A program made the translations under genes and the position numbers. Below the pieces are notes generated by a model. The model had not been told where the DNA came from. It made no database searches and worked only from the letters and a program-made list of their open reading frames with translations. Shown here in pieces: positions 26,495-37,980 of a DNA stretch of 52,500 bases; positions within the stretch are counted from its first letter, which is position 1, and every line of letters starts with the position of its first letter. The stretch comes from Ralstonia sp. ASV6 (lineage in GTDB: Bacteria; Pseudomonadota; Gammaproteobacteria; Burkholderiales; Burkholderiaceae): NCBI RefSeq assembly GCF_016429285.1, contig NZ_JAELUI010000019.1:1-52500 (forward strand). The letters are read 5' to 3'.

Positions 26495-29400
26495 ATGAGC
26501 ACCTCCCCCGACTCGCGTCCCGACCTGCAATCAAAGCCCAATGACTGGCGCGCACGGCTTGATCGTGTGCGCGGCACAGCCGGCTGGCAACGCGCCGCAC
26601 AGGTTGGTACGTCGCGGCGCACCAAGCGTATCGGGTTGGGTGTACTCATCTTCCTGGTGATGTTCGGCCTGCTGGGTGCTCTGGGCGGACCGCCGCTGCT
26701 GCACCACCTGGCCGAGACGCAGTTGAGCAAGGTCCTGGAGCGGCCGGTCACGGTCGGCAAGATCAGCATCAATCCGTACACACTGCGGCTCGATGTCGAC
26801 CAGCTCCACATCGCCGAGCGCGACGGCAAGACGCCATTCGTGGACGTCGGCCACCTCCACGTGAATGCCTCGTGGAGTTCGATCTTCCGCCGTGCCCCCG
26901 TCATCGAAGAACTGCGTATCGATGCGCCGCGCGTGCACATCGTGCGTACCGCCGAACAGCGCTTCAACTTCTCCGATGTCGTCGACAGGCTCACTGCGCC
27001 GGAGAACCCGCCCAAGCCGAAATCGACCGAACCGGCGCGCTTCGTGTTTGCCAACCTGCAGTTGACCAACGGCGCGATCGAGTTTGTCGATCAACCGCTG
27101 GGCGCGCAGCACAAGGTGGACAACCTGCAGATCGGCGTGCCCTTCCTGGCGAGCCTGCCGGCCGACGTGAACATCTTCGTGCAACCCCTGCTGGCAGCGC
27201 GCATCGATGGTGCTCCGCTCCACTTCACGGGTCAGACCAAGCCGTTTGCCGATTCACTGGAATCGAACTTGAACATCAAGCTCGACGGTCTGGAACTGCC
27301 CCGCTACCTCGGCTATGTGCCCGGCCCGCTGCCGGTGGCCGTGCCGCAGGGCAAACTGACGACCGACCTGACGATCGACTTCCAGAAGCCGAAAACCGGC
27401 GCTCCGGTGCTGCGCGTGCACGGGACCGCCGGCCTCGACAACCTGGAAGTAACCGACGCCAAGAAGGCTCCGCTGGTGGCCGCCAAACAGGTGCGCGCAA
27501 CGCTGACCGACGTGCGCCCGCTAGACAACGTATTCCACCTGGACGCACTGACGGTCGACGGCGTACGCGTGGATGCAGTGCGTGCTGCCGATGGGTCGAT
27601 CAACTTCGCGCAACTGGGCGGCAAGCCAGCACCGGCGGAGGCCAAGCCTGCCGCACCGGAGCCCACTGCCAACCCGAAACCTCTGGACGTTGTCATCAGC
27701 AAACTGCAGTTGGCCAACAGCACCGTGCACTGGCGCGATGCCACCACACAGCCGGCGGCGGACCTCGCGCTGGAAGACCTGCATGGCGAAGTGGCCGTAC
27801 GCACGTTGGGGGGCCCGATCACGTTTGACGTGGGGACCAAGCTGTCTCAAGGCGGCACGCTCAACGTCAAGGGCAACACCTCGCTGGAGAAAAGCAATGG
27901 CGAGTTGGAACTGAAGCTCGACGGCGTGAAGCTGGTCGGCATCGGGCCGTATCTACGCCAGGCAGGCGCACCGCAATTGCAAAACGGTGCGCTGTCGGCG
28001 GAAGGCAAGGTCGCGCTCGACTTCGGCGCCGACAAGTTCAACGTGCGCGCAGAACCGCTGACGGCCAGCCTGGCGGATCTGTCGATGGCGCCACCCGCGG
28101 GCAAGGACACGGCGCTGCGCGCCAAGCTGCTGCGCGCCGACGTGAAAAGCTTCGACCTGGCAGCCCGTACGATCGCCCTGAACGAAGTGCGTGCGGATGG
28201 CCTGCAACTCGATGCGCTGCGCAAGAAGGACGGTGCGACCACGCTGACGCTGCTCGACGGCGCACCACCCGCCGCCGCTAAACCCGCCGCTGCCGCGGCC
28301 AAGTCCAAACCGAGTGCACCGGCCGAGAAGCCCTGGGCCGTGACCGTACAGACGTTCAAGCTGGACAACGGCGCGGTCGGCTTTGAAGACCAGACCAACT
28401 CACACCCGGTGAAGGTGCGCGTTGAACCGCTGAACGTGGTCGTGCAAAACGCATCGACTGATCTCGGTAAGCCGGTCAACGTGCAGATTGGCGCCGGGCT
28501 GGGCAGCAAGGGCAAACTGGATGTGCGCGGCGACGTGGTGCCGCAGCCGCTCAAGGCTGACCTGCGCGTGAACACGCAGAATCTGTCGCTGGCGGGCTTC
28601 GATCCATACCTCGACAAGACGTTGAATGCAGCCATCACCAGCGCGCTGCTGACAATGGACGGCCGCCTGGTGCTCAACCAGGGCAAGGCGCTGACGGTCA
28701 GCTACCAGGGCAACGCGACGCTGGGCAACGTGCGCTTGCAGGATCGTGTGACTTCTGACGACTTCCTGCGCTGGCGCTCGCTTGCGCTCAACCGCATCCA
28801 GGCCAACTACGACGGCAATACGCCTCGTGTGCGCGTGGGTGCGGTGGCGCTGTCGACGTTCTATGCGCGGATCATCATCAACCCGAACGGGCGCCTGAAC
28901 CTGCAGGACATCCGCGTGCAGTCGGATGAGGAGCGCCGCTCGCTCACGCAGGCGCAGCCCGCCTCGGCTTCGGCCCCTGCTGCCGCCCCCGTCGTCAGTG
29001 CGCCGGTGGCCGTAGCTGCCGCCTCAGCACCGGTGGCCGCACCTGCGTCGGCCGTGGCAGCCACGGCACCCAAGTCTGGTGGTGCCGATTTGCGCATCGA
29101 TGCCATCACGCTGCAAGACGGCAACATCCGCTTTACCGACAACTTCGTCAAACCCAACTACACCGCCAACCTGACGGCCATTGGCGGCTCGGTAGGCACC
29201 ATCAGCACGGCCGCTAACCAGCCACCCGCCGACGTGGCCTTGCGCGGCAGTGTCGACGGCACTGCGCCAGTCGACATCCACGGCAAGATCAACCCGCTCG
29301 CACCCACCGCCTTTGTTGACCTGTCAGCCAAGGCCGACGGCGTGGAACTGACCAACCTGACGCCCTACTCCGCCAAGTACGCCGGCTACCCGATCACCAA

Positions 29401-30265
29401 GGGCAAGCTGACGATGGATCTGCACTACCTGCTGGACCAGAAGAAGCTGACCGCAGACAACCACATCTTCATCGATCAACTCACTTTCGGCGATCGCGTG
29501 GAGAGCAAGGATGCGACCAACCTGCCCGTGCGACTGGCGGTGGCGCTGCTCAAGAACTCGCGCGGTGAGATCGACGTGCACTTGCCGGTGTCGGGCTCGC
29601 TCGATGATCCGCAGTTCAGCGTCGGCGGCATCGTCATACGTGCACTAGTCAACCTGATCGTGCGTGCGGTGACAGCACCGTTCTCGCTGCTGGCCAGCGC
29701 CTTCGGCGGTGCCGGTGGTGAAGAACTCGGCTATATCGAGTTCGATCCGGGCACGTCGGTCATCGGCCCGGCGTCGATCGCAAAGCTGGACAAGTTGGCG
29801 ACCGCGCTCAAGGACCGCCCGGCGCTCAAACTCGACATTGTCGGCCGCGTCGACCCGGAATTCGACCGTGACGGCCTGCGCCGCGAAGCTGTGAACCGCC
29901 AGATCCGCGAGCAGAAACTCAAGGACGCCGGCGATGCCGCAGAGGCCGACACCTCCGTCAAACCCGAAGAAGAGAACAAGTACCTGGAGCGTGCCTACAA
30001 GGCCGCCAAGTTCCCGAAGCCGCGCAACATGATCGGCCTGGCGAAATCGCTGCCGCCGGAAGAAATGCGCAAGCTGATGGAAACCAACGTGCAGGTGACG
30101 GATGCGGACCTGCGAGAACTCGCCCAGCGCCGCGCCAACGCCGTGCATGTGGCGCTGGCCGAACGTGTGGATCCTGGACGTCTCTTTGTGGTGGCGCCTA
30201 AGCTCAACGCCGAGGGTATCAAGGACAAAGGCAAGACCACCCGGGTTGATTTCGCGCTGAAGTAG
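26495..30265 (+). CDS. DUF748 / AsmA-like large envelope protein
   Basis: The product has 1256 residues. A single membrane helix lies near 48-70 (LGVLIFLVMFGLLGALGG). Long beta-repeat stretches of AsmA type follow, where KLDGLELPRYLGY-like and VDLSAKADGVELTNLTPYSA units recur. Ala-Pro-rich linkers break them at about 380-395, 590-608 and 825-865. Near 1085 the segment GYIEFDPGTSVIGPASIAKL begins an OmpA-like C-terminal part. Large AsmA-like proteins bridge the periplasm and carry phospholipids; that role is inferred from the fold. It ends 31 bases before ssrA. Confidence 0.88.
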   Translation: MSTSPDSRPDLQSKPNDWRARLDRVRGTAGWQRAAQVGTSRRTKRIGLGVLIFLVMFGLLGALGGPPLLHHLAETQLSKVLERPVTVGKISINPYTLRLDVDQLHIAERDGKTPFVDVGHLHVNASWSSIFRRAPVIEELRIDAPRVHIVRTAEQRFNFSDVVDRLTAPENPPKPKSTEPARFVFANLQLTNGAIEFVDQPLGAQHKVDNLQIGVPFLASLPADVNIFVQPLLAARIDGAPLHFTGQTKPFADSLESNLNIKLDGLELPRYLGYVPGPLPVAVPQGKLTTDLTIDFQKPKTGAPVLRVHGTAGLDNLEVTDAKKAPLVAAKQVRATLTDVRPLDNVFHLDALTVDGVRVDAVRAADGSINFAQLGGKPAPAEAKPAAPEPTANPKPLDVVISKLQLANSTVHWRDATTQPAADLALEDLHGEVAVRTLGGPITFDVGTKLSQGGTLNVKGNTSLEKSNGELELKLDGVKLVGIGPYLRQAGAPQLQNGALSAEGKVALDFGADKFNVRAEPLTASLADLSMAPPAGKDTALRAKLLRADVKSFDLAARTIALNEVRADGLQLDALRKKDGATTLTLLDGAPPAAAKPAAAAAKSKPSAPAEKPWAVTVQTFKLDNGAVGFEDQTNSHPVKVRVEPLNVVVQNASTDLGKPVNVQIGAGLGSKGKLDVRGDVVPQPLKADLRVNTQNLSLAGFDPYLDKTLNAAITSALLTMDGRLVLNQGKALTVSYQGNATLGNVRLQDRVTSDDFLRWRSLALNRIQANYDGNTPRVRVGAVALSTFYARIIINPNGRLNLQDIRVQSDEERRSLTQAQPASASAPAAAPVVSAPVAVAAASAPVAAPASAVAATAPKSGGADLRIDAITLQDGNIRFTDNFVKPNYTANLTAIGGSVGTISTAANQPPADVALRGSVDGTAPVDIHGKINPLAPTAFVDLSAKADGVELTNLTPYSAKYAGYPITKGKLTMDLHYLLDQKKLTADNHIFIDQLTFGDRVESKDATNLPVRLAVALLKNSRGEIDVHLPVSGSLDDPQFSVGGIVIRALVNLIVRAVTAPFSLLASAFGGAGGEELGYIEFDPGTSVIGPASIAKLDKLATALKDRPALKLDIVGRVDPEFDRDGLRREAVNRQIREQKLKDAGDAAEADTSVKPEEENKYLERAYKAAKFPKPRNMIGLAKSLPPEEMRKLMETNVQVTDADLRELAQRRANAVHVALAERVDPGRLFVVAPKLNAEGIKDKGKTTRVDFALK

Positions 30266-30296: not shown

Positions 30297-30654
30297 GGGG
30301 CCGACCTGGTTTCGACGTGGGTTGCGAAGCAGCGGAGGGCATACCGAGGACCCGTCACCTCGTTAATCAATGGGAATGCAATAACTGCTAACGACGAACG
30401 TTACGCACTGGCAGCCTAAGGGCCGCCGTCCTCGCACTGGCTCGCTGACGGGCTAGGGTCGCAAGACTAGCGAGGTCATTTACGTCAGATAAGCTTTAGG
30501 TGAGTCACGGGCCTAGAGACGAAAACCTAGTGAATCGCCGTCGTAGAGCGTGTTCGTCCGCGATGCGGCGGTTAAATCAAATGACAGAACTAAGTATGTA
30601 GAACTCTCTGTGGAGGGCTTGCGGACGCGGGTTCGATTCCCGCCGGCTCCACCA
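30297..30654 (+). ncRNA. ssrA: Transfer-messenger RNA (tmRNA)
   Basis: The gene begins GGGGCCGACCTGG and ends CCGGCTCCACCA. The 5' GGGGCC pairs with the 3' GGCTCC region to make the acceptor stem, and GGGTTCGATTCCC forms the T arm. The tag frame at 30387-30419 reads ANDERYALAA and then TAA. tmRNA with SmpB rescues stalled ribosomes and marks the product for proteolysis. A GATAAT -10-like box at 30277-30282 is placed about right for its promoter. No integrase or attachment duplication lies at its 3' end. Confidence 0.97.
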
Positions 30655-30983: not shown

Positions 30984-32057
30984 GTGAAAAAAGCTCTCCT
31001 CGCAATGACAGCCATCGCTGCAGCCTGTGGCGCTTCCGGGGCATTCGCCCAAACCGCATCTGGCGTGACGCTGTACGGCCTGGCCGACATTGGCATCGAA
31101 GCCATCAATCACGTGCCGGGCAACAGCACCGGCGGTAACACCGCCGTCCGCATGAATGCCGGCAACCTGAGCGGTTCGCGCTGGGGCCTGCGTGGCACGG
31201 AAGATCTCGGCAACGGCCTGAAGGCGATCTTCACGCTCGAAAGCGGCTTCGACCTCGACACCGGTATGTCGGCCCAGGGTGGCCGCCTGTTCGGCCGCCA
31301 GGCTTACGCTGGCCTGCAAGGCAACTTTGGCGCCGTCACGCTGGGTCGTCAGCAGACCGCGCTGTACGACCTGTTCGGCGCCTATGACCCGATGGGTGCC
31401 AACCCGCGCTACTCGCTGGCCGCTGTCGACTCGGCATTCAATGGCCGCGCTGACAACGCCATCAAATACACCGGCAAGTTCGGCGGGCTGACCGCCATCG
31501 GCTTCTACAGCTTCGGTCGCGACAACAACGGCGAAGTGCCGGGCGCAGCCAAGGTGGCCCGCAACTACGGTCTGGGCTTCGCCTATGCGGCAGGCAACCT
31601 CTCGATCGGTACCGCGTATGACCAGTACCAGGGCGCCACGGTCGCGCTGCAGGACCGCAGCGCCAAGCGCGCCGCGATTGGTGCGTCGTACGCCTTTGAC
31701 GATGCCAAGGTGTTCGGCGGCTTCCGCTGGCTGCGCGACGACGGTACGGCCAGCGCCACGGCCACCATCACGCGCACCAACGTCTACTGGCTGGGCGGCC
31801 AGTACCGCGTCATGCCGGCCCTGCTGCTGACGGGCGCTGCGTACTACACGGACAACCGCAACTCGAGCGCGGATCCGTGGATGTTCGTACTGTCGGCCGA
31901 CTACTCGTTCTCCAAGCGCACCGATGTCTACCTGAACATCGGCTACGCGAAGAACAAGAACGGTTCGACGCAAGGCCTGAGCGGCTCAGGTTCGACCTTT
32001 GTTGCAGCGGGCGAAAACCAGACCGGCGCCACGATCGGCCTGCGTCACCGCTTCTAA
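30984..32057 (+). CDS. Gram-negative porin (Burkholderiales type)
   Basis: The product has 357 residues and forms a 16-strand beta-barrel, trimeric in this family. The signal peptide covers about 1-20 (GAFAQTASG). It opens VTLYGLADIGIE, then has SRWGLRGTEDLGNGLKAIFTLE and GRLFGRQAYAGLQGNFGAVT, and ends with the outer-membrane signature ATIGLRHRF with terminal Phe. The start is a GTG with only a weak ribosome site. Codon use suggests high expression. It is a general diffusion porin; the substrate range is unknown. Confidence 0.94.
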   Translation: MKKALLAMTAIAAACGASGAFAQTASGVTLYGLADIGIEAINHVPGNSTGGNTAVRMNAGNLSGSRWGLRGTEDLGNGLKAIFTLESGFDLDTGMSAQGGRLFGRQAYAGLQGNFGAVTLGRQQTALYDLFGAYDPMGANPRYSLAAVDSAFNGRADNAIKYTGKFGGLTAIGFYSFGRDNNGEVPGAAKVARNYGLGFAYAAGNLSIGTAYDQYQGATVALQDRSAKRAAIGASYAFDDAKVFGGFRWLRDDGTASATATITRTNVYWLGGQYRVMPALLLTGAAYYTDNRNSSADPWMFVLSADYSFSKRTDVYLNIGYAKNKNGSTQGLSGSGSTFVAAGENQTGATIGLRHRF

Positions 32058-32175
32058 GCCGTACGCGCCGGACGACGGCGCATCACCAAATCGTCGTCAC
32101 CCGCACCTCCCTTGCGAGGCCGCGGCGTGACGACACCACGTTCATATCGACCTTGCCTCCTTGCAGGGCTCGTTG

Positions 32176-32209
32176 GGCCGATTCTCGATTGCTGAATCGG
32201 CCTCTTTTT
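32176..32209 (+). terminator. Intrinsic terminator after the porin gene
   Basis: The arms GGCCGATTC (32176-32184) and GAATCGGCC (32194-32202) flank a 9-base loop. TCTTTTTG follows. It lies about 120 bases beyond the porin stop. Confidence 0.85.
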
Positions 32210-32307
32210 GTTTCTGCCCGTCTCCCCTGCGACCCGGCGCACGCGTGCAATCTCGTACGCCGTCCGCGTTGCGCCACGTCCCAAACCACATCGTATCGAC
32301 GCTGTAC

Positions 32308-32952
32308 TCAGCGCGTTGCTCGCCCCGCAGGGTTGACTGGCGGGCCCGTGGCTTCTGGCCTGTGGCGGATCATGGAAACGCTCAGCATCAACGCACCGAC
32401 AGCCAGCCCTGCCAGATGGGCAGCAGCAAGGGGCGGTGCACCAAGCCAGGCCACAGCATCCATGTTGACGCCACCGAGCCACTGCCAGACGGCACGGCCG
32501 ACAAGCGCGGCCAGCACAACGGCGGCAATCGCTTCGCGACGCGCACGTGGCAGCAGCGCCAGCACAGCAAGGCCGTAGTTGATGCCGGAGAACCCGGCAT
32601 AGAACTGCAGCCCAGGCAGGGCCGCAAAGAGAATCAGACCGATCAGCGTGGCGAGCACCATGCAACGGCGCCAGGCACACAGCGACGCGGGCAGGATGGC
32701 CGCGAGTGCGGTCAAACCACCCACGTTGAGCAGGCAGTGCGCCCAGGTGAGGTGGACGAGGTGACCGGAGACCAGCCGCCACACCTCGCCATTGATGATG
32801 GCGGCGCGGTCATAGCACAAGGCATCAACCACCGTTGCTCCGCCCGCCTGCAGCGCAAGCATCAGCAAGGCGGCCGCCAGGAAGCCCGGATGCACCGGGC
32901 TGTGCGACCGCCAGTCAGGCCGGCGGTGTGTCCAGGTGCTCAGGCGCGCCAC
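32308..32952 (-). CDS. rrtA: Rhombosortase (rhomboid-family intramembrane serine protease)
   Basis: The product has about 214 residues and six or so membrane helices. Rhomboid features are HLTWAHCLLN (H72 and N76), the catalytic serine S122 in AGFSGINYG, and the catalytic His179 in LAAAHLAG. The compact size and the INYG after the serine motif suit the rhombosortase subfamily, which cleaves GlyGly-CTERM tails. The gene starts inside the end of the nuclease gene that encodes such a tail. I chose the GTG at 32952; a GTG at 33000 is also in frame. Neither has a good ribosome site, so coupling to the nuclease is likely. Confidence 0.85.
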   Translation of the reverse strand: MARLSTWTHRRPDWRSHSPVHPGFLAAALLMLALQAGGATVVDALCYDRAAIINGEVWRLVSGHLVHLTWAHCLLNVGGLTALAAILPASLCAWRRCMVLATLIGLILFAALPGLQFYAGFSGINYGLAVLALLPRARREAIAAVVLAALVGRAVWQWLGGVNMDAVAWLGAPPLAAAHLAGLAVGALMLSVSMIRHRPEATGPPVNPAGRATR

Positions 32953-35414
32953 GAACGACGGCGTGCCAGGGCGACCATGCCGGCCGTCAGCGTCAGCCAC
33001 ATCAGCGGGTCCAGCGAGCCCGAGCCCGAATCACCCACGTTGTTGCTGCCGCCGGGTGTGCCCGTGCTGCCTTCCGGGGTCGTGCTGCCGGTGCCCGGGG
33101 TGCCGCCCGTCGCTTGCGTATTGAGCGCAAAGTCAACCAGCACCGGATCGTGGTCCGAAGAACGGTAGGCATCCGGCGCATAGTACGTCTGCTGCTGCTC
33201 GGCGCTCTTGTAAGCGAACGAGTATTCCAGCGCGATCGGCTCGTCGGCATTGATGTGCCATTCATGCACGGCGCGCACGCGATCCGCCAGGCCGGACGTC
33301 GCCAGCGCGTGGTCGATGTAGCCGGACTCACCACCAAACACATAGCTGTACGCGTCCTTGCCGACGAACTTGGCAACCATGTCGGCGTAGCCCCTCTGCG
33401 CGAACAACAGCACCGGGTCTTCCTTGGCGTAGCTGTTCAGGTCACCAATCAGCAGCTTGCCCACGTCGGCCACGCCCGTCGGCGAGGTGGCGAGCCAATC
33501 GGCGATCAGGCCCGCGGCGCGCAGGCGGGTGGGGTTCCAGCAGCTCTGGCCATCGCCCTGGTCGGCGTCCTTGCCGGTGGCACCGGTACAACCCTTGGAC
33601 TTCAGGTGATTGACCACCACGGTGAAGTTCTGCGTGCCACCAATACGGCGGAAACTGCGAGCCAGCGGCTGGCGGTTCTTGTCGTCAATCGCCAGCGTTG
33701 CGACTGTGCCAACCGGTTCCACCGTGCGGCTGTTGTAGATGATCGCCACCGTGATCGCGTCGCCGCCCAGCTTGGGCACGCCCGGATCAACGAAGCGCCA
33801 GTCGGCACCCAGTTGGCTGGTCAGGCGGCGGATAGCACTCAGGTCACCATAGCCATCGTTCTCGATCTCCATCAGGCCAACCACATCGGCGTTGATGGCG
33901 CGGATGGCCGCAACGATCTTGGCTTCCTGCCGCTCGAACTCGGCCTGCGTCTTGGCGCCGCGGTTGTTCGGATCGTCGAAGCCGGCACCCTTGCCGTCGC
34001 CATTGAAATAGTTGAGCACGTTGAACGAAGCTACGCGCACGTCTGCCTGTGCGTGACGCGCGGGCGCACCGGTGCGCGGGTTGCCGGCAGCGTTGAAGAC
34101 CGGCGCAGCAGCACCAGGCACCGGTTGCAGACGCCACGCGTTGTAGCGCATCTCCAGCACGCCCTGCACACCGCTCACCGTGTAACCGGCGCGCACCGGG
34201 TTGGCGGCGGACAGACCCGGCGCTGGATACGGCACCGTACCTGGGTTCTGCTGGTTGGAGCCATCATCGAGTACCAGGCGGTTGAGCGCATTGGCCGCAG
34301 CCTGCGCAGCCGCACCGTTCGCAGCTGGGGCCACGTTGGTCGGCAGTGGCAGACGACCGTTGCTGAGCAGCACGCTGCCATAGCGGCCAAGCTCGTACGT
34401 CTCGCTCACGGTGAGCGTCTGCGGCAGGCGCACCAGCATGCCTTCATAAGCTGACAGCGACTTAGCATCGGCCAGAGGTAGCGTCACATCCACCGGCGTC
34501 ACGCGGTTGCCACTGGAGCAGCTTGCAAGGCCATTCGTGGCCAGTGTCAGTTGGGTCTGGCCGTACTTCTCTTCGACCTTGCCGACGATGTGAACCAGAT
34601 CGCCGGCACGCGCGGTCACGCCGGGCGCATAGATGAACAGGCCCTCAGATACGCCTGCCAGCTTGCGGCGCTGCGCGTCGGGCTGCTGCACGAAGAAGCC
34701 GTTGAAGCCGTTGGTGCCGCTGTAATCAGCCGTCACCACGGCCTCGATCTCAACGTTCTGGCCGGCCAGCGGCGACGTTGCCCCTGCGCCCTGCACATCT
34801 GCGATATGCGTGGCCGCCGCGCCGCACACGGGCAGCACCGGCGGCGGCGTTGGCGTACCGCCCTGGCCGTTGTACAGGCCGAGATCGGAGAAGTCGTCGA
34901 CATTGAACGCATCCCATTGCACAGCCGGATCGAAGACTGCGGAGATGTTCGTATCGCCTTGCTTTACCGTGCTCTTGCGGCGCAGTGTGTGGTCCATGGT
35001 GCCGGCCGTGGCCGTACCCCAGTAGCCCACTGCAGGCCGGTAGCCGACTTGGCCGATGTGGTCCACCACCGTGCCGGAGCGCGTGAGGGTGATGGCATCG
35101 TCGCCATTGAAGGTGAACGCCGCAGTCTGGTTGACCTTGGAGCCGAGCACACCAGCCAGCGTGCTGTGGGCCATCACGTACACCGCGCCCGGGGCAAGCT
35201 TGCCGGTGAGCGCGAAGGACGTGGTCGGCGTCGCGGCACCGTTGTTGTATTGCTCGACCTTGTAGAGCGACAGATCGACCTCGGTGCTATCGGGGTTGTA
35301 GATCTCGAGCGCCTTGTTGTTCGATGTGCCTTCAACGTATTCGCTGAAGATGAGCTCGGCATGGGCTGGCAACGCCATGGAGAGCACGATGGGAAGGATG
35401 TAATGCAAACGCAT
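32940..35414 (-). CDS. ExeM/NucH-type extracellular endonuclease with GlyGly-CTERM-like tail
   Basis: The product has 824 residues. A signal peptide (1-20, ends ALPAHA) is followed by a lamin-tail domain (about 20-130, ELIFSEYVEGTSNNKALEIYN). An OB-fold-like region comes next (about 205-300), then an endonuclease/exonuclease/phosphatase domain (about 460-770) with LMEIENDGYG, VVNHLKSKG, IGDLNSY and SSDHDPVLVDF. A Gly/Thr/Ser linker leads to SGSGSLDPL, a hydrophobic helix and ARRRSWRA. That end has the layout of GlyGly-CTERM, the rhombosortase signal. It should degrade external DNA or RNA. It follows the 5'-nucleotidase gene by 103 bases. Confidence 0.9.
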   Translation of the reverse strand: MRLHYILPIVLSMALPAHAELIFSEYVEGTSNNKALEIYNPDSTEVDLSLYKVEQYNNGAATPTTSFALTGKLAPGAVYVMAHSTLAGVLGSKVNQTAAFTFNGDDAITLTRSGTVVDHIGQVGYRPAVGYWGTATAGTMDHTLRRKSTVKQGDTNISAVFDPAVQWDAFNVDDFSDLGLYNGQGGTPTPPPVLPVCGAAATHIADVQGAGATSPLAGQNVEIEAVVTADYSGTNGFNGFFVQQPDAQRRKLAGVSEGLFIYAPGVTARAGDLVHIVGKVEEKYGQTQLTLATNGLASCSSGNRVTPVDVTLPLADAKSLSAYEGMLVRLPQTLTVSETYELGRYGSVLLSNGRLPLPTNVAPAANGAAAQAAANALNRLVLDDGSNQQNPGTVPYPAPGLSAANPVRAGYTVSGVQGVLEMRYNAWRLQPVPGAAAPVFNAAGNPRTGAPARHAQADVRVASFNVLNYFNGDGKGAGFDDPNNRGAKTQAEFERQEAKIVAAIRAINADVVGLMEIENDGYGDLSAIRRLTSQLGADWRFVDPGVPKLGGDAITVAIIYNSRTVEPVGTVATLAIDDKNRQPLARSFRRIGGTQNFTVVVNHLKSKGCTGATGKDADQGDGQSCWNPTRLRAAGLIADWLATSPTGVADVGKLLIGDLNSYAKEDPVLLFAQRGYADMVAKFVGKDAYSYVFGGESGYIDHALATSGLADRVRAVHEWHINADEPIALEYSFAYKSAEQQQTYYAPDAYRSSDHDPVLVDFALNTQATGGTPGTGSTTPEGSTGTPGGSNNVGDSGSGSLDPLMWLTLTAGMVALARRRSWRA

Positions 35415-35517
35415 GGGATGGGGTCGGAAAAGCGGTGCGATGGCGCACCTGTGGTTGTTGTATTGAGGCTGGAGCGTGCCGCGCCATAGGCGAGACATGC
35501 TCCAGCCCGACTGCGGG

Positions 35518-37419
35518 TCAGGGCGTTTCGATGTAGCTCTGCGTGCTGTAGTCCGCCACCGGCAGCTTGTTGAGCTGCTTGGTGGTGCCGGGCAGGCCAT
35601 CCACATAGGTGAGGAAGGCTTCGGCGTAGTCGAGGCCGACTTCGGTACGGCGTGCACCGGTCACGCTCTTCATCGTGGTGTAGCCGTCCTGGCCATCCGC
35701 AAGGAAGTTGATGGTGACCACGCTGTAGGTCTTGGCCAGGTCCAGCGGCACATAGCCCGAGGCGGTCTTCACTTCGAGCTGGCTCAGGCGCGAGCCGGCG
35801 GCCTGGTTCAGGTCCACCTTCCAGCGCAGGCCACCGGTGTAGGGATAGGAGCCGGTGTTATTGGCGACCACCGATGCGATGGCATCCTCCAGCGTGGCCT
35901 TCACTTCGGCGCCCGTCATCTTGAGCTGCACCAGCGTGTTCTTGAACGGCAGCACGCTGTAGATGCCACCCACGGTCACGTTGCCGGCCGGCAGATCAAC
36001 ACGCACACCACCCCCATTCTGAATGGAGATGTCGGCGTTGAAGAAGGCCTTGCCGCGCTCCAGGAACGCCTGGGCCACGAGCTGCTGCACATCGCCGCCA
36101 TGGGCGATGACATCGGCGTCTTTGTTGCAGACGTCGCCCAGCGTGGAGCGCGTGGCGTCCCGCTTGGTGCCGGGTACGCGGCGCAGGCACAGGTTGGTCG
36201 GCGCGGTGGCCACGACCTTCTTGCCCAGCGCGTCCTTGTCAGCCTTGTAGCCGGCCAGCTTGGCGGCCGCAGCAGTATCCGGCGTAGTGACGCGCAGCAC
36301 GCCGCTGGCGGCGATGTCCTGGCGAATGGCGGCGGCGTCAGCATCGGACACCGCCACCGTGCCACGCTTGAAGGTGTCGCCAATCAGCACGTGCGGCGTG
36401 CCCTGGCAGTTGACGACATCGCCGTTCTTGTCGAAGTCCACCTTCAGCTCACCGACCACGTAGCTGTACTGCCACGCCTGCACCACGCAGACGGGCTTGC
36501 CGTCCTTGTCAGTGGTGCGGGTCGGGTAGTCGCCTTCCGGGGTCAGGCCCAGCGGCTGCATGGTGGCCTTGGGCCCGAGCAGCGTGTGCGAATCTGCCCC
36601 CACAATCACGTCGACACCGCTGAGCTGTTTGGCCAACGCCAGCTCGCCGGTGTAGCCCACGTGCGAGGCAATCACGATCTTGTTGATGCCCTGGGCGCGC
36701 AGGCGGTTGATCTCGGCCTGCGCGGCCACGGCTTCGTTGTCGAACGTGGTGCCCGCATCCGGGCGCGAAGAATTCTTGGTCTTGTCAGCGATGGTCAAGC
36801 CGATGATGCCGATCTTCTGCCCGTCGCGCTCCACCACGGTCGAGGCCTTCACCGGGCCCTTGGCCAGCGCGGAGGTGGCCGCAAACTTGGCGTTGGCACT
36901 CAGCACCGGTGTCTTGCAATTGCCTGCATGCAGGTAGTCGATGAAGGTCTTCAGGCCGCTATCGGTGTTGTCGAACTCGTGGTTGCCCAGCGTGAACGCA
37001 TCAAAGCAGACCGTGTTCATCATCTCCGCATCGGCCTTGCCGTTGCTGAGGTTGAAGTACAGGTCTCCGGTGACGGCGTCCCCCGCGTGAATCTTCACCA
37101 CGTTGCGCGAAGCACTTGCCAGCGACTGGATGGCGGACGTCACGCGCGCGAAACCGCCGTACTCCACGTCGATCGGCTCACGCTTGCCCGCAGCCGTCAT
37201 CAGGTTGAGCTTGACCGACTCCGCATCGAGATGGGAGTGGTGATCGTTCACGTGCAGAAGCGTCAGCGACAGCGGCTTGGCTTCGGCGGGCTGCGCCGTT
37301 GTGGGCGGTTGGGTGGATGCGGTTGTGTCGTCACCGCCGCCGCAAGCGGCCAACGAGAACAGCGTCGAAATCAGGACGAGCGAATACGCGCCCGCCTGAC
37401 GTTTGGAATGGCGTGCCAT
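35518..37419 (-). CDS. 5'-nucleotidase / metallophosphatase lipoprotein (UshA/NutA family)
   Basis: The product has 633 residues. The lipobox SLAAC puts the lipidated Cys at 26, followed by GGG rather than Asp, so outer-membrane placement is expected. The metallophosphatase domain shows LTLLHVNDHHSHLD, GDAVTGDLYF, LGNHEFDN, ASHVGYTGE and VGADSHTLLG. The C-terminal nucleotidase domain carries NGGGVRVDLPAGNVT and GYVPLDLAKTYSVVT. It would remove phosphate from nucleotides at the cell surface. Upstream of the nuclease on the same strand, the two likely act in series on nucleic acid. No Pho box was found upstream. Confidence 0.9.
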   Translation of the reverse strand: MARHSKRQAGAYSLVLISTLFSLAACGGGDDTTASTQPPTTAQPAEAKPLSLTLLHVNDHHSHLDAESVKLNLMTAAGKREPIDVEYGGFARVTSAIQSLASASRNVVKIHAGDAVTGDLYFNLSNGKADAEMMNTVCFDAFTLGNHEFDNTDSGLKTFIDYLHAGNCKTPVLSANAKFAATSALAKGPVKASTVVERDGQKIGIIGLTIADKTKNSSRPDAGTTFDNEAVAAQAEINRLRAQGINKIVIASHVGYTGELALAKQLSGVDVIVGADSHTLLGPKATMQPLGLTPEGDYPTRTTDKDGKPVCVVQAWQYSYVVGELKVDFDKNGDVVNCQGTPHVLIGDTFKRGTVAVSDADAAAIRQDIAASGVLRVTTPDTAAAAKLAGYKADKDALGKKVVATAPTNLCLRRVPGTKRDATRSTLGDVCNKDADVIAHGGDVQQLVAQAFLERGKAFFNADISIQNGGGVRVDLPAGNVTVGGIYSVLPFKNTLVQLKMTGAEVKATLEDAIASVVANNTGSYPYTGGLRWKVDLNQAAGSRLSQLEVKTASGYVPLDLAKTYSVVTINFLADGQDGYTTMKSVTGARRTEVGLDYAEAFLTYVDGLPGTTKQLNKLPVADYSTQSYIETP

Positions 37420-37581
37420 GATTAACTGCTGTGGGTTGGGTAAGACGCAGACTTTCAGCAATGCGGATGACGTACACATTGCGGGCCGCCATGGTTCTTT
37501 CAGCGATCCCTAAGCTACCTTTTTGTTTGCTTTATCTGCACCAGGCACATCCACTCGATTGACGCTGCTGCACCCAAAAAG

Positions 37582-37614
37582 AAAAAACCCGCGATGCTTT
37601 CGCAGTCGCGGGTT
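37582..37614 (-). terminator. Intrinsic terminator after the RcnB-like gene
   Basis: The arms AACCCGCGA (37586-37594) and TCGCGGGTT (37606-37614) flank an 11-base loop. The minus strand then has a run of six Ts. Confidence 0.85.
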
Positions 37615-37638
37615 CTTGTTGATCAACGAATGTGCGCG

Positions 37639-37980
37639 TTATCCGCCGATGGTCACGTTGAGGACGACACCGCTCGGTTGCACGAGGTAATAACCGCCGT
37701 TGACACCAATCCAGTGGGCTCCGCGCGGCGGCGGTGCCAGATGATGGTCACGCCAGTTGTCGATGATGTATTGGCGATCGCGGTACTCTGGTGGAATCCG
37801 TTCGCCACGGTTCCAGCGGTGGGCCATCTCGCGATCGGCACGGCGGTCGACATCGACACGCTCTTCGTGACGGTCGCGATCCCCACGGTGGTCACGGTCA
37901 TGGTCTTGTGCGTGGCTCGCGAGCGGCACCAGCGCAGAGACCGCCAGCATCAAGGAAATCAGAATCTTGGCTTTCTGCAT
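37639..37980 (-). CDS. RcnB-family secreted protein
   Basis: The product has 113 residues. The signal peptide covers about 1-24 (ends ASHAQDH). A His/Asp/Arg-rich segment (HDRDHRGDRDRHEERVDVDR) follows, then a compact C-terminal domain with YRDRQYIIDNWRDHHLAPPP and GYYLVQPSGVVLNVTIGG. This is the pattern of RcnB/DUF3315 periplasmic proteins linked in E. coli to nickel and cobalt balance. The His-rich part could bind metal; no metal exporter gene is next to it. Confidence 0.82.
   Translation of the reverse strand: MQKAKILISLMLAVSALVPLASHAQDHDRDHRGDRDRHEERVDVDRRADREMAHRWNRGERIPPEYRDRQYIIDNWRDHHLAPPPRGAHWIGVNGGYYLVQPSGVVLNVTIGG

Follow-up and report, generated by a model that had tools for sequence, protein, structure and literature searches.

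The locus analysed here raises the question of whether three neighbouring genes of Ralstonia sp. ASV6, encoding a 5'-nucleotidase-family lipoprotein, a nuclease and a rhombosortase, form one unit for the scavenging of nucleic acids or a rhombosortase–target pair next to a third gene. The window is a stretch of 52,500 nucleotides, which is one contig of a 5.9-Mb assembly in 718 contigs. The initial annotation described a self-contained cassette with its own sorting protease. The explanation that is probably correct is a local rhombosortase–target pair, made up of the nuclease and the adjoining rhombosortase (rhombosortase B), in which B is accessory, a second rhombosortase (A) belongs to a parallel system and the nucleotidase stands outside. 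The nuclease–B pair of the proposed cassette is retained, but a second rhombosortase in the genome and a nucleotidase that is not conserved speak against its being self-contained. The main value of the result is corrective: the locus holds a pair of a known type and a gene that is next to it by chance, and does not amount to a new three-gene pathway. Statements on the cited papers refer to the parts of those papers covered here.

Organization of the locus

The three adjacent genes are all on the minus strand. The lipoprotein is encoded at 35518–37419, the ExeM/NucH-family nuclease (824 aa) at 32940–35414 and rhombosortase B (214 aa) at 32308–32952. Pfam and NCBIfam searches confirm the families given by the initial annotation. 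The start of the nuclease was set by eye, and its length counts from the Met of a signal-peptide-like start. The start of rhombosortase B, also set by eye, is a GTG that overlaps the nuclease stop, so that the two genes share 13 nt; a second GTG, upstream at 33000, is also open. Scans of positions 32000–37800 are uninformative for both promoters (0 found, 0.7 expected) and terminator-like elements (5 found, 3.6 expected).

A tmRNA gene (tag ANDERYALAA) lies at 30297–30654 on the plus strand, just upstream of a porin gene beside the three-gene locus. A plus-strand frame of 1256 aa at 26495–30265 is presumably AsmA/DUF748-like, judging by its look.

The nucleotidase

The nucleotidase matches the Pfam domains 5_nucleotid_C (2.7e-34) and Metallophos (1e-8), and a lipobox (LAAC) was identified by eye. 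Its best NCBIfam model is nadN (TIGR01530), with 369.1 bits against a cut-off of 436, which falls short of a NadN assignment. Its sequence is assignable to the 5'-nucleotidase family only.

When the window protein is used as a query (E up to 1e-60), the nucleotidase is found in two of 16 genomes of the genus. The second copy is 97% identical and again adjoins the nuclease. The initial annotation's proposal of a single functional operon for nucleic-acid scavenging is compatible with the shared strand, the 103-nt gap between the nucleotidase and nuclease genes and a plausible chemistry. It is nevertheless very unlikely, as the nuclease is present in 11 of the 16 genomes, and the nucleotidase does not lie beside it in the G003, G005, G008 and G014 loci or in two Cupriavidus loci (BIS7 and CH34). 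A conserved three-gene unit is rejected on the count of two in 16, and the nucleotidase is not a conserved part of such a unit. It appears to be a lineage-specific local neighbour, which could act on the products of the nuclease.

The nuclease and its C-terminal tail

The nuclease matches the NCBIfam ExeM/NucH model (NF033681) with 669.7 bits, above the curated cut-off of 300, and contains the Pfam domains LTD (lamin-tail) and Exo_endo_phos (EEP nuclease). A signal-peptide-like start is followed by the lamin-tail domain, the EEP nuclease domain, a Gly/Ser linker and the C-terminal tail. An identity with NucA and NucB of R. solanacearum was considered and dropped: those proteins are given as ~30 and ~15 kDa (PMC4919084), sizes that mark them as nucleases different from the 824-aa protein.

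The predicted sorting tail, DSGSGSLDPLMWLTLTAGMVALARRRSWRA, is encoded at 32943–33032 on the minus strand. It consists of a Gly/Ser stretch, a hydrophobic helix and Arg, without a literal GG directly before the helix. The nuclease thus has the layout of GlyGly-CTERM proteins, in which an exported protein ends in a Gly/Ser motif, a helix and a basic C-terminus; its export signal was recognised by eye. In the TIGR03501 search of the genome the tail is not reported and so does not reach the curated cut-off, and with an E limit of 1 no NCBIfam tail model, MprA_tail included, matches the nuclease. The silence of TIGR03501 means little, since this model also misses the MprA-type tails of the genome. 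The name used by the initial annotation, GlyGly-CTERM-like, fits the layout, and the tail is to be named only in this way.

The tail is also recognised by a B-type tail profile, which was built from 13 tails and used to score 150 of 241 candidates in the genome. Only the nuclease, which is itself a training row, falls below an E value of 1, and the next best candidate has an E value of 1.01. Among the 150 scored candidates, rhombosortase B has no other recognisable target.

Rhombosortase B and its active site

The TIGR03902 score of rhombosortase B is 112.1 bits when the genome is searched and 111.1 bits by hmmscan (curated cut-off 84), and the protein matches the Pfam Rhomboid domain at 1.4e-7. 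The Ser/His dyad of the family, GxSG in TM4 and AHxxG in TM6, is present as GFSG and AHLAG. The predicted catalytic residues are Ser122 (codon 32587–32589, minus strand) and His179 (codon 32416–32418, minus strand), numbered from the GTG start chosen above. Both residues are in place, with the same numbering, as the initial annotation had stated. The Ser is shared by 113 of 113 aligned relatives.

A 2011 survey reported a His near the catalytic Ser in virtually all rhombosortases, as part of the signature SGxLH (Haft and Varghese, PMC3237569). In contrast, B has Tyr126 at this position, four residues after the Ser (codon 32575–32577, minus strand). The His is a feature outside the curated definition of TIGR03902. 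Among the 113 sequences, which are weighted to low scorers, this residue is His in 52, Tyr in 26 and another residue in 35. The sample comprises 46 TIGR03902 matches, seven loci from a search with a B alignment and 60 places picked mainly among low scorers, and several of its sequences are below the TIGR03902 cut-off. Within the B clade the residue is Tyr, with Cys in one Ralstonia. As Tyr runs through the clade and residues other than His are common among the 113 rhombosortases, the Tyr is best read as a feature of the clade and not as damage.

In the rhombosortase tree, all B-alignment loci group with B (98/98 support) and A falls in a separate group of 29 rows (90/90). The deeper backbone is without resolution. 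The possibility that B is a recent Ralstonia copy of A is ruled out, as B groups with enzymes of the Comamonadaceae and A is apart from them. The AlphaFold model of B has a mean pLDDT of 49.2, too low for it to be used, and a sequence search against solved structures gives only a weak match, to the GlpG homologue 2nr9 (E 0.026).

A second rhombosortase in the same genome

The second rhombosortase, A, is on contig C574 and outscores B in the TIGR03902 search (138.9 bits). Three genes beside it have tails that pass the cut-off of MprA_tail (TIGR03867), a model with no further match in the genome. The two of the three that were run against Pfam are S8 proteases. MprA_tail is a form of GlyGly-CTERM first seen in Ralstonia (PMC5300114). 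The A group resembles the nuclease–B pair as a linked rhombosortase–target arrangement in the same genome, but differs from it in the protease family of the targets, in tails of the GGGG[AT][VIL]PL type and in a His-type active-site motif. Two linked rhombosortase–target pairs in one cell offer a clean setting for the study of substrate choice by an intramembrane sorting protease.

The initial annotation held that B was the nuclease's own, dedicated protease and that many other GlyGly-CTERM proteins in the genome would argue against this. The second statement applies in part, as there are three others, which have their own enzyme A. The tail profile points to the nuclease only, and B adjoins the nuclease in all five genomes of the genus that carry it; yet A exists, and elsewhere the tail persists without B. 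B is not the sole sorting protease of the genome, given that the higher-scoring A sits beside three other tailed genes.

A third TIGR03902 match in the genome, with 27 bits, is not taken as a rhombosortase. The TIGR03501 search of the genome gives three matches, all below the cut-off. One is within a permease-like frame, one is in a frame of doubtful coding, and the third falls at the end of a frame with multiple helices, which we take to resemble Lnt. GspD is found over its cut-off at one place in the genome, and a type II system is therefore likely.

Distribution in the genus and apparent loss of rhombosortase B

Across the 16 genus genomes, A is present in all 16, the nuclease in 11 (called at E up to 1e-40) and B in five. 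The adjacency of B and the nuclease in all five, together with two Cupriavidus records, is more than chance. The remaining six nuclease-bearing genomes have the nuclease and A and no B. The same histidine-kinase gene lies downstream of the nuclease with or without B. In two B-bearing genomes the alignable downstream DNA begins 610 or ~780 bases past the nuclease stop, compared with 112–127 bases in the six genomes without B. The stretch that replaces B is alike in all six, which fits one deletion, and the absence of B is apparently the result of a clean deletion. Two losses are possible, since the nuclease tree does not settle one of its forks. Loss appears likelier than gain, since the B-bearing rows include early branches and Cupriavidus; the drawn root is a midpoint root.

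All six genomes without B keep the nuclease tail, with GGAGAVDP followed by the helix and Arg. The pN/pS of the tail, a rough value that is based on 37 columns, is 0.29 in these six. Three of the B-bearing Ralstonia give 0.30, and the full set of six B-bearing rows gives 0.40. For the core of the nuclease, pN/pS is 0.12–0.13. The retention of the tail under similar constraint without B indicates that the tail still matters in these genomes and does not depend on B. A strict dependence, as implied by the initial annotation, is not supported, given these six genomes. The genus thus supplies a natural case in which one enzyme is deleted and the tail of its target retained.

A change before the motif, from SGAG to GGAG, coincides with the loss of B in the six genomes. 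This position is P4, which is insensitive in VesB of V. cholerae (PMC11389362), and the change is therefore not pressed as a consequence of the loss.

The six genomes bear on the explanation that A serves the nuclease too, as one general enzyme, and that B is a redundant passenger. That six of the 11 nuclease-bearing genomes have A and the tail without B is in its favour, as is the near-equal constraint on the tail in these six and in three B-bearing Ralstonia. It is nonetheless unlikely. The A-type tails are mostly GGG followed by [AT][VIL]P, whereas the nuclease tails are SG[AS]G or GGAG followed by [AS][VL]DP, and MprA_tail does not match the nuclease. B itself is also kept open and conserved in five genomes.

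In four Ralstonia loci (L068, L071, L083 and L084), the nuclease, with B where present, is followed by a hybrid histidine kinase with a solute-binding domain (Pfam, run on one of them). Beyond the kinase are genes that by eye resemble those for chaperone-usher pili.

Related loci in Cupriavidus and the Comamonadaceae

The search of the genome collection with the B alignment returns 12 loci: four from Ralstonia, one from Cupriavidus sp. BIS7 and seven from Variovorax, Pseudacidovorax, Xenophilus (two records of one strain) and a MAG. A tailed gene adjoins the rhombosortase in all 12, one of which (L095) looks like a copy of another (L094). In Cupriavidus sp. BIS7 the same nuclease is beside B and has the tail SGAGSLDPLM.

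The megaplasmid of C. metallidurans CH34 carries the nuclease–B pair as well (NC_007974.2, about 1665846–1669042). The CH34 nuclease is 89.6% identical over residues 1–767 and has the tail NSGAGSMDPFTWLTLAAGVAALARRR. The rhombosortase downstream overlaps it and is of the B type (GFSGVNYG). Unlike the window, the frames read around the CH34 pair include no nucleotidase.

In the seven loci from other taxa, the rhombosortase belongs to the same clade and converges on a gene for a 931–997-aa protein, in contrast to the same-strand arrangement in Ralstonia. These proteins have tails of the form GG[SA]LDxGDL, or GGSLGTGDL in Xenophilus, and are glycosyl hydrolase family 10 (GH10) proteins by Pfam in the two of seven loci run. 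None of the NCBIfam tail models is above its cut-off on the two GG[SA]LD tails tested. As the B-type tails of the nuclease and the GH10 proteins are not covered by the models tried, such surface proteins may be under-annotated. The new detail, from the tree and alignments, is that B belongs to a Tyr-type clade in which the Comamonadaceae enzymes lie next to GH10-like proteins, and that the tails of these proteins are similar to that of the nuclease. The B-clade rhombosortases that converge on GH10-like proteins are those of L090 and L093–L098, with a further one in L266, a Variovorax paradoxus plasmid record.

Comparison with known systems and proposed processing

Linked rhombosortase–target pairs are already known, and the Ralstonia nuclease–B pair is a further example. 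In the 2011 survey, the rhombosortase lies within one gene of its target in 16 of the 21 genomes with a single target, and R. pickettii and R. solanacearum are given in Table 3 with a target within one gene (PMC3237569). The same survey reports two rhombosortases in CH34 with one target next to each, and the CH34 nuclease–B pair is, we infer, one of these two. The adjacency that the initial annotation took as unusual had therefore been published for single-target genomes, along with a genome with two rhombosortases. No description of this Ralstonia pair was found in the titles and abstract openings of the open-licence PMC papers retrieved on rhombosortases and on GlyGly-CTERM in Ralstonia.

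A comparison for its function is offered by RssP of V. cholerae, which acts on VesA, VesB, VesC, Xds and others. It shares the family, the Ser/His dyad and the three-part tail, and Xds is also a DNase, like the Ralstonia nuclease. RssP differs in having many scattered targets and an SGGS motif. It cuts VesB after the second Gly, and the cut protein receives a glycerophosphoethanolamine-containing group and is then exported by the type II system (PMC6219818, PMC11389362, PMC13393428).

By analogy with VesB and RssP, B most likely trims the tail of the nuclease. The nuclease would be exported through the inner membrane and held there by its C-terminal helix, with the Gly/Ser motif outside. B would then cut near the Gly before SLD with Ser122 and His179. 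The trimmed nuclease might be joined to a phosphoethanolamine lipid, as VesB is, and would be passed to the type II system, displayed on the surface and able to cut extracellular DNA. A and its three MprA-type genes would form a parallel system, and B would be an accessory enzyme, carried along with the nuclease and open to loss. In genomes that have lost B, its role probably falls to another protease (A or GlpG) or to simple membrane anchoring.

Several observations count against the pair as the explanation: the six genomes with the tail and without B, the lack of the published His in B, and the results for ExeM of Shewanella oneidensis. Cutting by B also meets a difficulty in the tail itself. 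With a cut before SLD, P2 would be Ser and P3 would be Gly, and such changes left VesB with 5% and about nil activity, respectively (PMC11389362). The A-type tails of Ralstonia likewise depart from the VesB rules, at P3 and P1'.

S. oneidensis resembles Ralstonia in that its genome encodes a rhombosortase (SO_2504) and an ExeM-family nuclease whose tail is of the GlyGly type. It differs in that the rhombosortase is not needed for ExeM activity: its loss, or a GG-to-AA change, altered the activity little (PMC6085458). A linked ExeM–rhombosortase pair is not described in the parts of that paper covered. As ExeM is mostly retained at the inner membrane and is active in the absence of the rhombosortase (PMC6085458), and as GlpG is able to cleave the tail of VesB at a different site (PMC11389362), the Ralstonia tail could be mainly a membrane anchor or be handled by GlpG, with rhombosortase processing marginal for this nuclease. 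This is quite improbable, given that B repeatedly adjoins tailed genes of two unrelated families. The local pair with an accessory B remains the preferred explanation.

Tail motifs in the wider rhombosortase sample

The acidic third residue after the Gly motif raises a further possibility, in which the B clade has its own recognition code and the nuclease tail has been re-wired to another protease in the six Ralstonia without B. The proposed code is that a non-His active site (Tyr or another residue) reads an acidic third residue, as in G[SA]-[LVM]-D, and that a His-type active site reads a non-acidic one. The code and the re-wiring taken together are doubtful, though conceivable. If true, they would provide a natural test of enzyme–target re-wiring.

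Tails were assigned by hand for 55 of the 113 rhombosortases, with one tail used where a genome had two or three. The third residue is acidic for 3 of 18 His enzymes and for 27 of 37 non-His enzymes (p 1.2e-4). After thinning by hand, which handles relatedness only roughly, the counts are 3 of 12 and 13 of 19 (p 0.029). The pattern was noticed first and tested afterwards on the same data, and the code may be regarded as a lead only, worth a proper test. Clear exceptions are three His enzymes with Asp (G197, G226 and G600) and the Tyr enzyme with Gly in Xenophilus. Two candidates were dropped before the count, one as ambiguous (G461a) and one as implausible (G516). The 113-sequence analysis was made without L137–L192, the near copy L095, and G087, G091 and G096 (53–57 bits).

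Three further groups of loci were observed. In L125, L126, L129, L131, L135 and others, proteins of ~280–330 aa with GGGS[ML][ED]-type tails adjoin distant, non-His TIGR03902 matches. L245 (G844) contains two tandem TIGR03902 matches, both just below the cut-off. In L193, L195, L197, L198, L201, L205, L207 and L210, proteins of ~680–740 aa have a common region before the tail (QP[ML][YF]...), and the rhombosortases that adjoin them form a clade with Asn at the His position.
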